A stretch of DNA of 64,000 bases from Alphaproteobacteria bacterium (GTDB taxonomy: Bacteria > Pseudomonadota > Alphaproteobacteria > UBA8366 > GCA-2717185), in contig WLWY01000001.1 of the NCBI GenBank assembly GCA_012103325.1, positions 1,217,653 through 1,281,652 of the forward strand, in the 5' to 3' direction. The position numbers and the translations under genes are program-made. Positions 3,298-29,533 of this stretch are shown in pieces. The notes under the pieces are model-generated. The model was not told the origin of the DNA. It saw nothing but the letters and a program-made list of their open reading frames with translations, and made no database searches. The number at the start of each line of letters is the position of its first letter. The stretch's first letter is position 1.

Positions 3298-4266
3298 TTA
3301 TCTCGCGTCGCGAAACCGCCGGCGGCGATAGAAGCCCATCGCACCCAAGCCGATACCGAACAGCGCCATCGTTCCGGGTTCCGGGATCGATGTCGTCGGG
3401 GTATCGCCCATGATGTTGTCGATCGCGCCGGATCCCGCCAGCCACACCAGCATCTTGCTGGCCTTGATCCCGATGTCGCCATTGAAGGTCAGGAGGCCAA
3501 CGCCATTGTCCCCGACTTCAGGAATATCGATCATTTCGACCAATTGGCCGTCCTCGTCGTAGAACTTGACCTTGCCGCCGTCTTCTTCGATGTCGAAGAT
3601 GTTCATCTTGAACAGGGTCACTTCCTCTTCAAATACGAACTTGATATCGCCGCCAGACCGCTCGTCGTTGGCGTAATCCTTGATATTATCCTTCGGGCCG
3701 GGGGTATCGTTGAGGTCGCCAGGATTGGAACACACGCCGGTGTTCAACACCTGCTTATGCGTCGATGTTCCGTACTCGCCGCCACAATGCCTGAGCTTGT
3801 TGCTATCATTGGACTGTATGATCAGCACATTGCGGTACCCATTCAACGCATCCGTGCTCAGCCTCGGGCTGTTATTCAATTGGGTAGGGGTCGGATTTTT
3901 GAAGTCCTGTTGTAAATCGCCATCAAATGTCGGGCTCAGCGAGCTGTCGAAACCAACGGCGAAGGTGTTGTAACCGCTGCCGCCGTTCCAGGCCTTGATC
4001 GTAACCGCAACGTTGTTCGAACCCGGAATACCATTGTCGCTCGCGATATTGCCGCTATTTCCGGTGTTCGTCTGACCGTCATAGCGCTGCCAGTTATTGC
4101 CATGCCGGTCGTTGCTAAAGATCGTATTCGAATCGAACAGGATGCGATCGCCGTTTTGGTCGAAGCCTTTGGTGTCGAAATCAATATTCCACATATCGGC
4201 AGATGCTGGCGCGGATGTTAAGGCCGCGATCACGCCGAAAAGGCAAATACTACAAAATTTACGCAT
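3298..4266 (-). CDS. PEP-CTERM sorting domain protein, 322 aa
   Basis: Secreted protein with an N-terminal signal peptide (MRKFCSICLFGVIAALTSA, then an ASA cleavage site). The C-terminal PEP-CTERM signal comprises IPEPGTMALFGIGLGAMGF, i.e. the PEP motif and a membrane helix, followed by an Arg cluster. Exosortase is known to recognise this signal and anchor or release such proteins at the cell surface; no exosortase lies in this window. The middle is a beta-rich, Asn/Asp/Gly-rich surface domain of unknown function. I prefer the ATG at 4266 to one 27 codons upstream because the signal peptide begins exactly there. A sigma-54 promoter and two upstream elements precede it (listed separately). 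Confidence 0.9.
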   Translation of the reverse strand: MRKFCSICLFGVIAALTSAPASADMWNIDFDTKGFDQNGDRILFDSNTIFSNDRHGNNWQRYDGQTNTGNSGNIASDNGIPGSNNVAVTIKAWNGGSGYNTFAVGFDSSLSPTFDGDLQQDFKNPTPTQLNNSPRLSTDALNGYRNVLIIQSNDSNKLRHCGGEYGTSTHKQVLNTGVCSNPGDLNDTPGPKDNIKDYANDERSGGDIKFVFEEEVTLFKMNIFDIEEDGGKVKFYDEDGQLVEMIDIPEVGDNGVGLLTFNGDIGIKASKMLVWLAGSGAIDNIMGDTPTTSIPEPGTMALFGIGLGAMGFYRRRRFRDAR

Positions 4267-25564: not shown

Positions 25565-28500
25565 ATGCATCTGCTCGCGACACAGCCGGGGTTGATCGAT
25601 GACGGCGCGCAAGCCGTCGACCTTGGCCAGTCGCCGGGCGACATCGTCGTCCTCAGCGCCGCCGACAGTGAAATCGCCGGGATCGCCGCGGCGCACAGCC
25701 GAAGCAGCGCCCCGCCCACACTCCGGCTCGCGAACCTGATGCAGCTCAACCACAACATGTCCGTCGACCTGTACGCCGACGACGTGATCGCACAGGCCAA
25801 GCTGGTTATCGTGCGCGTGCTCGGCGGCCACAGTTATTGGCCCTATGGGATCGAACAGATCACGGAACTCTGCCGCCGATCCGGCATCGCGCTCGCCTGG
25901 CTGCCGGGGGACGACCAGCCGGACGCGGAGCTGACCGCCCTGTCTACCCTGCCTGGGGAAGCGACCCATCGGCTCTGGCAGTACTGCGTGCATGGCGGAC
26001 CCGCGAATTACGATGCGCTGCTCGCCTATGCGGCAACACTGTGTGGTCAGGATATCCCCTGGCGCGAACCTGCCCCGTTGCTCCGCGCCGGACTGTACTG
26101 GCCAGGGCTGGAGGTCACGTCGATCGCCGATTTGCCATGGGAAAAAGGACAACCGTCCGCCGCCGTGGTGTTCTATCGCGCGTTGGTACAGGCCGCTAAT
26201 ACGACCGTCATCGATGCGCTGATCGAGAGCCTTGCGCGTCATGGGCTGAATCCGCTGCCGCTCTACGCGTCGAGCCTGAAAGACCCTGTCGCGGCCGCCA
26301 TCGTGCAGCGGTTGATCGACGAGGCGGAGCCATCGGTCATCCTGAACGGCACCGGCTTCGCCCTGTCCAACCCGGGCGAGGCGCGCGGCGAGACGCCGTT
26401 CGATGCTGCCGATTGCCCGATCCTGCAAACCGTCTTTTCCGGCGGCGACGTGGAGAGCTGGCGCGAGGGCACGCGCGGTCTGTCGGCGCGCGATATCGCC
26501 ATGAACGTGGCGCTGCCGGAAGTCGATGGCCGCATTCTGTCCCGTGCCGTTTCCTTCAAGGATCGGGCCCGGCGGGACGAGGCGGTAGAGGCCGATATCG
26601 TCGCCTACCAACCAGTGCCCGACCGGATCGACTTCGTTGCCGCCCTCGCCGCCAATTGGGCGCGTCTGCGCAGCACCACACCGCAGGACCGCCGGGTCGC
26701 GCTAGTGCTGGCGAACTATCCGAACCGGGACGGCCGCATGGGCAACGGGGTTGGGCTCGACACGCCCGCCGGTGCTGTAAACGTGTTGCGCGCATTGGAG
26801 AAAGCGGGATACCGCGCTACCGATATGCCGGATGACGGCGCCAGCCTGATCGCGCGGCTTGCCGCCGGCCCAACCAATGCCGGCTGGCGCGGCCGCCAGA
26901 TCGAGGAAACGCTGTCCTTCATCGATTACAATCTGTTCTTCGCCGCCTTACCGGAAGCGGTGGGTAGTCAGGTGCTCGACCGTTGGGGGCCACCGGAAAC
27001 GGACCCGTTCTTCCGCCCCGCCGATCTGGATTGCGGATCCTTCGCCATCCCCGCCTTTCGCTTCGGCAACGTCGCGGTCGCGCTGCAGCCGGCGCGCGGT
27101 TACAACATCGATCCCGTCGCGAGCTACCACGATCCAGCGCTGGTGCCGCCGCACAACTACTTCGCCTTTCACGCCTGGCTGCGCGAAGCCTTCGGTGCCC
27201 ATGCCGTCGTGCATATGGGCAAGCATGGCAATCTCGAATGGCTGCCGGGCAAGGCGCTGGCTCTGTCGTCGGCATGTTTTCCGGAAGCGGCGTTGGGCCC
27301 GATGCCCAATCTCTACCCCTTCATCGTCAACGACCCCGGCGAGGGCACGCAGGCGAAGCGGCGAACGCAGGCTGTCATCATCGACCATCTGACGCCGCCC
27401 CTAACCCGTGCGGAGAGCTATGGTCCGCTGAAGGATCTGGAAGCGCTGGTCGACGAGTATTTCGAAGCGGCGGGGATCGACCCGCACCGCCTCAAGGTCC
27501 TCGGCACGCAAATCCTCGAGCTCGCCCGGGACATCGGTCTCGACAAGGATTGCGGCATTTCACCGGATGCGGACGAGACGGATGCACTCGGCCTGCTCGA
27601 CAATTTCCTCTGCGAGCTGAAGGAAATGCAGATCCGCGACGGGCTGCACATCTTCGGCGAATCCCCCGATGGCGCGCGACGCACCGACCTGCTCGTCGCG
27701 CTTGCCCGCGTCCCGCGGCGCGCGGGTGAGGGCGGGGATGCATCCTTGATTCGCGCGTTGGCGAAGGATCTGGGGTTGGAATTCGATCCGCTGAATTGTG
27801 TGTTGGGGGAAGCGTGGACGGGGGTGAAACCGGAGGCGCTGAATTGTCCCCTCACCCCTGATGAGACCTCCGCGAAATGGAGTGAGACCAGCGGTTCCAC
27901 CCCCACCTTAATCCTCCCCCCTCAAAGGGGAGGAGACAATTCCGTTGACCATCCTTCCATATCCCTTCCCCCTCGAGGGGGGAAGGTTAGGAAGGGGGTG
28001 GAATCGATGTCAGTGGCAGTATCCCAAAAGGATATCCCCACGGGAGACGGCTGGGGTGAGGGGATGAATGCGCCATGGCGGACCAATGGCGACACAGTAG
28101 AAAAACTGGAACTGCTAGCGCAGACACTCGTCGCCAATCAACAAGATCCCAACCCAAACTGGACCGCCACCCACGCCGTCCTCGCCGAAATCGATGAACG
28201 TATGGCCCCCGCCCTAGACGCCAGCGGCGCAGCGGAAATCGATGGCATTCTACGGGGACTCGATGGCCGGTTCGTCGCACCGGGTCCCTCCGGTGCACCG
28301 ACGCGCGGCCGGCCCGATGTCTTACCGACGGGACGTAATTTCTACTCGATCGACACCCGCACCGCACCGACACCGGCAGCCTGGCTGCTGGGATGGAAAT
28401 CGGCGCAGATGCTGGTCGAACGATACGCCCAGGATCACGGCGGCTGGCCGAAACGGCTGGCCTTGTCGGCCTGGGGCACGTCGAACATGCGCACCGGCGG

Positions 28501-29533
28501 CGACGATATTTCCCAGGCCCTGGCGCTGATCGGCGCGAGACCAACCTGGGACTCCGCGTCGCGTCGCGTGACCGGGTTCGAGGTCCTGCCGCTCGACATC
28601 CTCGATCGGCCGAGAGTGGACGTGACCCTGCGCATCTCCGGATTCTTCCGCGATGCCTTTCCCGCCTTGATCGACCTGTTCGATTCCGCCGTGCGTGCGG
28701 TTGCGGCCTTGGACGAAGACGCGCGCGACAATCCGCTTGCCGAGCGTGTCCGCCAAGACACAAACAAGCTAACGGGCACGGGTCTCGACAAATCCACGGC
28801 CGCACGACGCGCCGGGGCGCGGGTCTTCGGATCGAAACCGGGCGCGTACGGCGCCGGACTGCAGGCGTTGATCGACGAAAAGGGTTGGGAAACGTCCGAT
28901 GACCTCTCGCGCGCGTACTTGGCGTGGGGCGGGTACGCTTACTGTGCCGGGGCGGAAGGTGAAGCGGCGCACGGCCTGTTCGAAACGCGGTTGCGCGATG
29001 TCGAGGCCGTCGTCCATAACCAGGACAACCGGGAACACGATCTGCTCGATTCCGACGACTACTATCAGTTCGAAGGCGGCATGGCGGCGACGGTCCACAC
29101 TCTTTCGGGCAAACGCCCCGCTATTTATCACAACGACCATTCGCGGCCGGAGACGCCGAAAATCCGCCGCCTGGAAGAAGAGATCGCCCGCACCGTGCGC
29201 GCCCGCGTGGTCAACCCGAAATGGATCGCCGGCGTTATGCGGCATGGCTACAAGGGCGCGTTCGAGATGGCTGCGACCGTCGATTACATGTTCGCTTTCG
29301 CCGCGACAACGGGTGCCGTGGCAGACCATCATTTCGACGCCGTCTTCAACGCCTATCTGGACGACAGCCATATTTGTGACTTTATTGCCGAGCATAATCC
29401 GGCGGCACTGCAGGAGATCGCCGCGCGGTTGATGGAAGCGCAGGATCGTGGCTTGTGGCAACCACGCTCGAACATCAGTTATGAAAAGCTGGAGGCGCTA
29501 CGCGACGGTAACCGAGTGGGAGATGTTCGATGA
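25565..29533 (+). CDS. cobN: Cobaltochelatase subunit CobN with inserted palindromic segment, 1322 aa
   Basis: Large subunit of the ATP-dependent cobaltochelatase that inserts cobalt into hydrogenobyrinic acid a,c-diamide. Typical stretches are IDDGAQAVDLGQSPGDIVVL at the start, GKHGNLEWLPGKAL, NLYPFIVNDPGEGTQAKRR, PWRTNGDTVEKLELL, and near the C-terminus MRHGYKGAFEMAATVDYMF. Known CobN proteins have about 1275 residues; the surplus of about 50 is explained by residues 761-834, a low-complexity segment encoded by an inserted palindromic repeat. Both flanks remain in frame with conserved CobN sequence, so the protein is probably functional. No CobS/CobT chelatase genes are in the window. Confidence 0.93.
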   Translation: MHLLATQPGLIDDGAQAVDLGQSPGDIVVLSAADSEIAGIAAAHSRSSAPPTLRLANLMQLNHNMSVDLYADDVIAQAKLVIVRVLGGHSYWPYGIEQITELCRRSGIALAWLPGDDQPDAELTALSTLPGEATHRLWQYCVHGGPANYDALLAYAATLCGQDIPWREPAPLLRAGLYWPGLEVTSIADLPWEKGQPSAAVVFYRALVQAANTTVIDALIESLARHGLNPLPLYASSLKDPVAAAIVQRLIDEAEPSVILNGTGFALSNPGEARGETPFDAADCPILQTVFSGGDVESWREGTRGLSARDIAMNVALPEVDGRILSRAVSFKDRARRDEAVEADIVAYQPVPDRIDFVAALAANWARLRSTTPQDRRVALVLANYPNRDGRMGNGVGLDTPAGAVNVLRALEKAGYRATDMPDDGASLIARLAAGPTNAGWRGRQIEETLSFIDYNLFFAALPEAVGSQVLDRWGPPETDPFFRPADLDCGSFAIPAFRFGNVAVALQPARGYNIDPVASYHDPALVPPHNYFAFHAWLREAFGAHAVVHMGKHGNLEWLPGKALALSSACFPEAALGPMPNLYPFIVNDPGEGTQAKRRTQAVIIDHLTPPLTRAESYGPLKDLEALVDEYFEAAGIDPHRLKVLGTQILELARDIGLDKDCGISPDADETDALGLLDNFLCELKEMQIRDGLHIFGESPDGARRTDLLVALARVPRRAGEGGDASLIRALAKDLGLEFDPLNCVLGEAWTGVKPEALNCPLTPDETSAKWSETSGSTPTLILPPQRGGDNSVDHPSISLPPRGGKVRKGVESMSVAVSQKDIPTGDGWGEGMNAPWRTNGDTVEKLELLAQTLVANQQDPNPNWTATHAVLAEIDERMAPALDASGAAEIDGILRGLDGRFVAPGPSGAPTRGRPDVLPTGRNFYSIDTRTAPTPAAWLLGWKSAQMLVERYAQDHGGWPKRLALSAWGTSNMRTGGDDISQALALIGARPTWDSASRRVTGFEVLPLDILDRPRVDVTLRISGFFRDAFPALIDLFDSAVRAVAALDEDARDNPLAERVRQDTNKLTGTGLDKSTAARRAGARVFGSKPGAYGAGLQALIDEKGWETSDDLSRAYLAWGGYAYCAGAEGEAAHGLFETRLRDVEAVVHNQDNREHDLLDSDDYYQFEGGMAATVHTLSGKRPAIYHNDHSRPETPKIRRLEEEIARTVRARVVNPKWIAGVMRHGYKGAFEMAATVDYMFAFAATTGAVADHHFDAVFNAYLDDSHICDFIAEHNPAALQEIAARLMEAQDRGLWQPRSNISYEKLEALRDGNRVGDVR
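27847..28064. repeat. Composite palindromic repeat inserted in frame in cobN
   Basis: Bounded by perfect 12-bp inverted arms TCCCCTCACCCC (27847-27858) and GGGGTGAGGGGA (28053-28064). Inside are two further hairpins: CTCCCCCCTCAAAGGGGAG near 27914 and a near-palindrome CTTCCCCCTCGAGG.. around 27965. A second pair, TTCCACCCCC (27895) and GGGGGTGGAA (27994), encloses both. This looks like an intergenic-type C/G-rich repeat that landed in coding sequence without breaking the frame, as Rickettsia palindromic elements do. Confidence 0.8.

Follow-up and report, generated by a model that had tools for sequence, protein, structure and literature searches.

According to PMC10969869 and PMC2229807, Rickettsia palindromic elements (RPEs; Ogata et al. 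2000, 2002) are dispersed palindromes of around 100-150 bp, found between genes as well as in frame within conserved genes, where they add a peptide loop; nearly half of them are situated inside genes, and a guanylate kinase bearing an RPE is translated and active. In-frame insertions of palindromic elements or MITEs are reported for Rickettsia (RPE), Neisseria, enterobacteria, and others (PMC2229807, PMC10969869). REPs of the CGTC- and GTAG-tagged superfamilies are hairpins occurring mainly as inverted dimers and mainly in intergenic position, some being found in frame within genes of free-living bacteria. They are defined by a tag adjoining a stem of 8-9 bp, with a short loop and, in the CGTC type, a CCA tail; REP dimers are in some cases enclosed by other palindromes, and Xanthomonas recB carries different REPs at approximately one position (PMC3733652). 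Finally, the insertion sequence ISRm22 of Sinorhizobium meliloti targets REP palindromes, the axis of which shows direct repeats of 6 bp (PMC1525189).

The locus described here is a palindromic insert in cobN, situated in a stretch of 64,000 nucleotides from an alphaproteobacterial contig (henceforth the window). The open reading frame at 25565-29533 is CobN (TIGR02257; score 1648 bits, cut-off 822), and it is the sole CobN gene found in the genome (6.33 Mb in 24 contigs, estimated completeness 92.5%), the remaining matches of the CobN search being the translated repeat and no second CobN. The features, in coordinates of the window, are as follows:

25565-29533, plus strand: cobN, encoding 1322 aa (open reading frame call and profile search)
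27847-28064, plus strand: whole insert, i.e., outer palindrome and nested element, encoding residues 761-834 (arms and DNA of relatives)
27845-28069, plus strand: stretch standing in place of 9 bp of the same-genus genome G003 (DNA alignment; TGAAT at 27840-27844 and 28065-28069)
27847-27862, plus strand: left part of the outer palindrome, arm TCCCCTCACCCC followed by a shortened stem (uninterrupted in the genomes G001 and G002)
28037-28064, plus strand: right part of the outer palindrome, the ACGGGAGACGGCTGGGGTGAGGGGA region (comparison with G001 and G002)
27863-28036, plus strand: nested MITE-like element of 174 bp or 58 codons (placed by other copies; right border approximate, that end being decayed)
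27863-27877, plus strand: left terminal inverted repeat GAGACCTCCGCGAAA (differs at one position from the terminal repeat of the IS5-family element in this genome)
28023-28037, minus strand: decayed right terminal repeat (placed through a match of around 73%, counted by eye, of 27993-28037 to other copies)
27896-28002, plus strand: double-hairpin core of around 107 bp (common to dozens of genomic copies and to other species of the genus)
27964-27986, plus strand: hairpin CCTTCCCCCTCGAGGGGGGAAGG (exact pattern in the genome)

A first-pass annotation of the window had described a 218-bp palindrome bounded by 12-bp inverted arms and containing nested hairpins, which forms an in-frame, stop-free loop absent from standard CobN. 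Each of these points holds. The borders at 27847-28064 are exact, the arms at 27847-27858 (TCCCCTCACCCC) and 28053-28064 (GGGGTGAGGGGA) are complementary at 12 of 12 positions, the interior exhibits a pair of 48-nt arms and perfect 9-bp hairpins, and the segment encoding residues 761-834 is open throughout. Within the window, the 12-bp arm alone is not found above chance (two mismatches allowed), and the inner hairpin of 23 bp has no other match, with 0 expected. Concerning the relatives, in an alignment of 100 full-length CobNs, all distinct and taken from related genomes as well as from named alphaproteobacterial contigs, most sequences have no counterpart to residues 761-834; cobN is without the insert in two genomes of the same genus (G003 and G004), and the CobN of PDB entry 9uk9 possesses five residues (767-771) at this position. 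The segment is thus not a conserved part of the relatives' CobN, and the repeat occurs at no fewer than 40 places in its own 6.3-Mb genome: an in-frame palindromic insertion in CobN is confirmed. Where G003 has 9 bp, the window has 225 bp (27845-28069), a net gain of 216 bp or 72 codons. The TGAAT pair around the insert is at best suggestive of a 5-bp target duplication. An 11-bp repeat, CGCTGAATTGT, at 27789 and 27837 was set aside as a border repeat, one copy being situated 48 bp outside the insert.

The insert consists of two elements, a presumably older outer G+C-rich palindrome and a MITE-like element within it. In G001 and G002, which belong to the same genus, the outer palindrome alone, around 47-50 bp long, is found at the identical position of CobN; it has the form TCCCTCACCCC...GGGGTGAGGGGA and encodes SLTPAPSPWEEGRGEG or a close variant. 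Another genomic copy of the MITE-like element (L002) lies within the same kind of outer palindrome, and in a double nested pair of copies (L014 and L015, contig C3) the MITE is situated in the hairpin axis with the 8-bp motif CCTCAAGG on both sides; at the nested junction in cobN, no clean target duplication is visible. Other genomic copies keep both ends of the MITE, GAGACCTCTGCGAAAT...ATTTCGCAGAGGTCTC. In the cobN copy, the best match to the right terminal repeat has mismatches at 7 of 15 positions, which is chance level and unrecognisable alone; because this repeat is decayed, the right border of the MITE rests on the similarity to the other copies. In a tree of CobN, the window groups with the insert-free G003 and G004, not with G001 and G002, which implies either one loss or two gains of the outer palindrome. 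A third and smaller palindrome, CTGAAATG...CATTTCAG or CTGAACGG...CCGTTCAG, exists inside a hairpin of the core repeat at L014, L015, L022, L027, and L029 (contigs C1, C3, and C14) and constitutes a third level of nesting.

Searched as an exact pattern, the hairpin CCTTCCCCCTCGAGGGGGGAAGG occurs 48 times in the genome, distributed over 39 places, against 0 in the reversed control. Each of the four same-genus genomes contains the core of around 107 bp. It is absent from the remaining family members searched, and weaker matches to it exist in a few genomes of greater distance. Among 29 copies checked mechanically, only the one in cobN is spanned by an open reading frame with a Pfam match; long open reading frames across five other copies have none. 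The repeat exhibits the characters of a MITE, i.e., terminal inverted repeats (of which only the left one is intact in cobN), short length, lack of transposase coding, and multiple copies. Its left end, GAGACCTCcGCGAAA, agrees at 14 of 15 bases with the terminal repeat of an IS5-family element, 1156 bp long, in the same genome. With up to two mismatches, GAGACCTCTGCGAAA occurs 98 times in the genome, including 27863-27877 of the window, against 12 times in the reversed control; inverted pairs of it 1156 bp apart delimit 29 full-length copies of the insertion sequence (e.g., C1:263948-265103 in G000), the transposase of which matches NF033581 (IS5 family) and PF01609. Since 28 of these 29 copies exhibit around 100% identity and the element was found in none of the other genomes searched, those of the genus included, its spread in this lineage is recent. 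The flanks of 20 copies were read, and each of these copies occupies the axis of such a palindrome, in most cases between repeats of CTTGAG or CTCAAG. MITE copies bearing the terminal inverted repeats are also found in G001 and G004, both of which are without the insertion sequence, and the MITE is therefore older than the current burst. The present copies of the insertion sequence are probably not the movers of the cobN MITE; the terminal repeat suggests that the latter was mobilised by an IS5-family transposase.

Two other accounts of what was inserted have to be compared with this. The continuous inverted-repeat fold and the perfect 12-bp outer arms would be expected if the whole 218 bp were one RPE-type palindromic element that entered in a single step; this is improbable, however, given that the outer palindrome stands alone at the CobN site of G001 and G002 as well as elsewhere in many genomes, and that the inner element is without it at most other genomic places. 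What remains of the likeness to RPEs drawn in the first-pass annotation is a mobile palindromic repeat in frame in CobN, whereas the single element is actually two nested ones. The core, for its part, consists of two inverted hairpins and to this extent resembles a REPIN, i.e., REP sequences in pairs that a RAYT (Y1 tyrosine transposase) mobilises, and proteins of the Y1_Tnp type are encoded in the genome. Against such an origin, which is about equally doubtful, no Y1_Tnp locus has the repeat within about 1.6-8 kb (E 1e-3), the aligned copies end in TCCACCCCC with neither a GTAG nor a CGTC tag adjoining the hairpin, and the terminal repeat matches a DDE element of the IS5 family instead. The genes for Y1-type (RAYT-like) transposases at L157 to L159 (G000, contigs C13, C1, and C24) are not flanked by the CobN repeat.

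Concerning the state of the gene, both flanks of the insert in CobN are under purifying selection. Estimates of dN/dS for the two flanks range around 0.05-0.14, and those involving the window (around 0.08 before the insert and 0.05-0.06 after it, against G003 or G004) are no higher than among insert-free relatives themselves and equal those for the pair of insert-free species. As single-stranded RNA, the 218-nt insert folds with -112.4 kcal/mol (z = -5.0; none of 200 dinucleotide shuffles as good). Of 20 further copies of the core in the genome, 6 are open in the reading frame used in cobN, and over all frames the figure is 18 of 126; an open frame is thus uncommon and not extraordinary, such that selective survival of in-frame cases is explanation enough. 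A Pfam search of the 74-residue insert yielded no domain other than CobN. In a structure prediction for CobN residues 130-1322 from 35 sequences (mean pLDDT 79, pTM 0.81), the predicted fold matches that of Mycobacterium CobN 7c6o, and the insert, with a pLDDT of 23-30, is the sole long stretch below 50 (model positions 636-707). It is accordingly predicted to be disordered between two confidently modelled helices, and CobN with the insert looks functional.

Inserts of at least 12 residues are not distributed evenly along the 100 alphaproteobacterial CobNs, and cluster at residues of around 191 (20 sequences), 738 (32), and 762 (8). Compared with same-length pieces of the same gene, 16 of the 20, 27 of the 32, and 5 of the 8 inserts fold with z below -2; in this cruder comparison, the insert of the window falls short of that value, with z = -1.6. 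On a FastTree tree, at least 13, 12, and 5 changes at the three positions, respectively, are required under parsimony, with gains and losses pooled. These three loops of CobN are recurrent landing sites, hit by different repeat families. At residue ~762 the inserts are mutually unrelated across lineages: G005 possesses a double hairpin that is dispersed in its genome, Magnetospirillum UT-4 an insert with dozens of copies, another Magnetospirillum (L037) a CGTC-REP-like dimer in which the CGTC layout is present, and Tropicimonas (L067) a perfect palindrome. In G019, a member of the same order, a different palindromic insert is found in frame in CobN near residue 191 (L194, C42:20200-24600); just upstream of this cobN, at C42:20383-20481, the core repeat is found as well. 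Several rhizobial loci (among them L097, L099, L101, L102, and L104) contain palindromic inserts in frame near 191 and 738 simultaneously, up to 306 bp long, and the insert peptides of Rhizobiaceae are of the PPSVLPDISPTRGEI...ISPLVGEMPGRAEGG type. Typical repeat peptides were found in 28 CobN open reading frames of the rhizobial loci against 6 other long ones, two of which are CobN fragments; as these loci were gathered through CobN, the counts are no measure of enrichment over other genes. The first-pass annotation had contrasted a free-living-type alphaproteobacterial host with the situation in Rickettsia. Such a host is not without precedent, as intragenic REPs outside Rickettsia are published (PMC3733652) and comparable CobN inserts exist in many rhizobia and Rhodospirillales-type bacteria.

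Frame and stop-free state are kept in nearly all CobN inserts, a figure subject to a mild bias towards in-frame inserts, as the survey of CobN open reading frames requires a continuous frame. The sole frame break at an insert, among the CobN loci collected from related genomes and named contigs, is found in Rhizobium sp. CCGE 510 (L109, around 3480-3700), where cobN, in a sequence without N, is split into two frames at the repeat insert near 191; the repeat may really have broken the frame there, or the draft sequence may contain an error. The preservation of the frame bears on the idea that the insert is removed and not translated, as an intein, an intron, or through translational bypass. The strong RNA hairpin would fit this idea, which is nonetheless highly improbable: an intein or a group I/II intron would have to be longer than the insert, no intein domains were found, no Rfam family reaches its cut-off for the insert (only microRNA-type hairpins match below threshold), and open frames would be unneeded in a segment that is removed. 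The recurrence of unrelated repeats in three loops and in different lineages could, on the other hand, be taken for positive selection, by which palindromic loops would be kept repeatedly because they alter the chelatase, its contact with CobST, or the stability or translation speed of its mRNA; the loops at ~191, ~738, and ~762 would then be standing landing pads for palindromes, retained for a benefit such as CobST contact or the pace of co-translational folding. Both the selective explanation and this extension of it are unlikely, since many close relatives are without inserts, sequences and lengths of the inserts vary, disorder is predicted, and tolerance accounts for the pattern equally well.

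We therefore favour, with a probability of roughly 0.8, an outer REP-like palindrome followed by an IS5-type MITE in its axis, translated as a tolerated and disordered loop of CobN. A G+C-rich REP-like palindrome would have entered the linker of cobN around residue 761, where two species of the genus possess it alone, and its hairpin axis would then have served as target for the MITE-like element with ends like those of the resident IS5 element, most likely moved in trans by the IS5-family transposase or an earlier relative of it. Those insertions would have survived in which, as here, the net gain (216 bp) was a multiple of three and one frame free of stops. The insert would be translated as a disordered loop of around 74 residues between two helices, and CobN would stay functional through a linker that tolerates variation in length.

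Despite the general similarity to RPEs, likened here by description (a dispersed palindromic repeat, in frame in a conserved gene and absent from the orthologues), there are differences in the host, in the presence of two nested elements, and in the IS5-family terminal repeat; an IS-linked terminal repeat is not reported for RPEs in PMC10969869 and PMC2229807, and only 1 of 29 copies of the CobN repeat is situated in a recognised gene, compared with nearly half of the RPEs. The CobN core differs from GTAG and CGTC REPs, since neither superfamily's arrangement of tag, stem, and tail is present in it. Similar, too, are the intragenic MITEs (PMC2229807, PMC10969869), which are equally short and non-autonomous, with terminal inverted repeats matching a resident insertion sequence and in-frame fusion with a conserved gene, whereas the cobN MITE lies within a second palindromic repeat and shows no clean target duplication. 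The resident insertion sequence resembles ISRm22 in that all copies read are situated in the axis of palindromes with direct repeats of around 6 bp (here CTTGAG or CTCAAG); unlike ISRm22, it is of the IS5 family, and a MITE with the same ends took the pattern into a coding gene. The CobN insert works like an RPE and is best classed with in-frame insertions of the MITE/REP type, as an IS5-type MITE within a REP-like palindrome.

An in-frame insertion of the MITE/REP type is in itself of a known kind; new are the nesting, the link to an insertion sequence, and the hotspot in CobN, on which the literature search found no paper concerning inserts. The annotation of long CobNs in alphaproteobacteria calls for caution, as these often include repeat-derived loops. 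The entry of a mobile palindrome into a core metabolic enzyme can here be followed in readable steps, from the empty site over the outer palindrome to the nested element, and a candidate mover, the IS5-family element, is present in the same genome. How palindromes become protein segments has so far been studied mainly in Rickettsia; the loops of CobN, repeatedly hit by unrelated repeats, constitute a testable system for the passage from selfish palindromes to translated segments of a protein.
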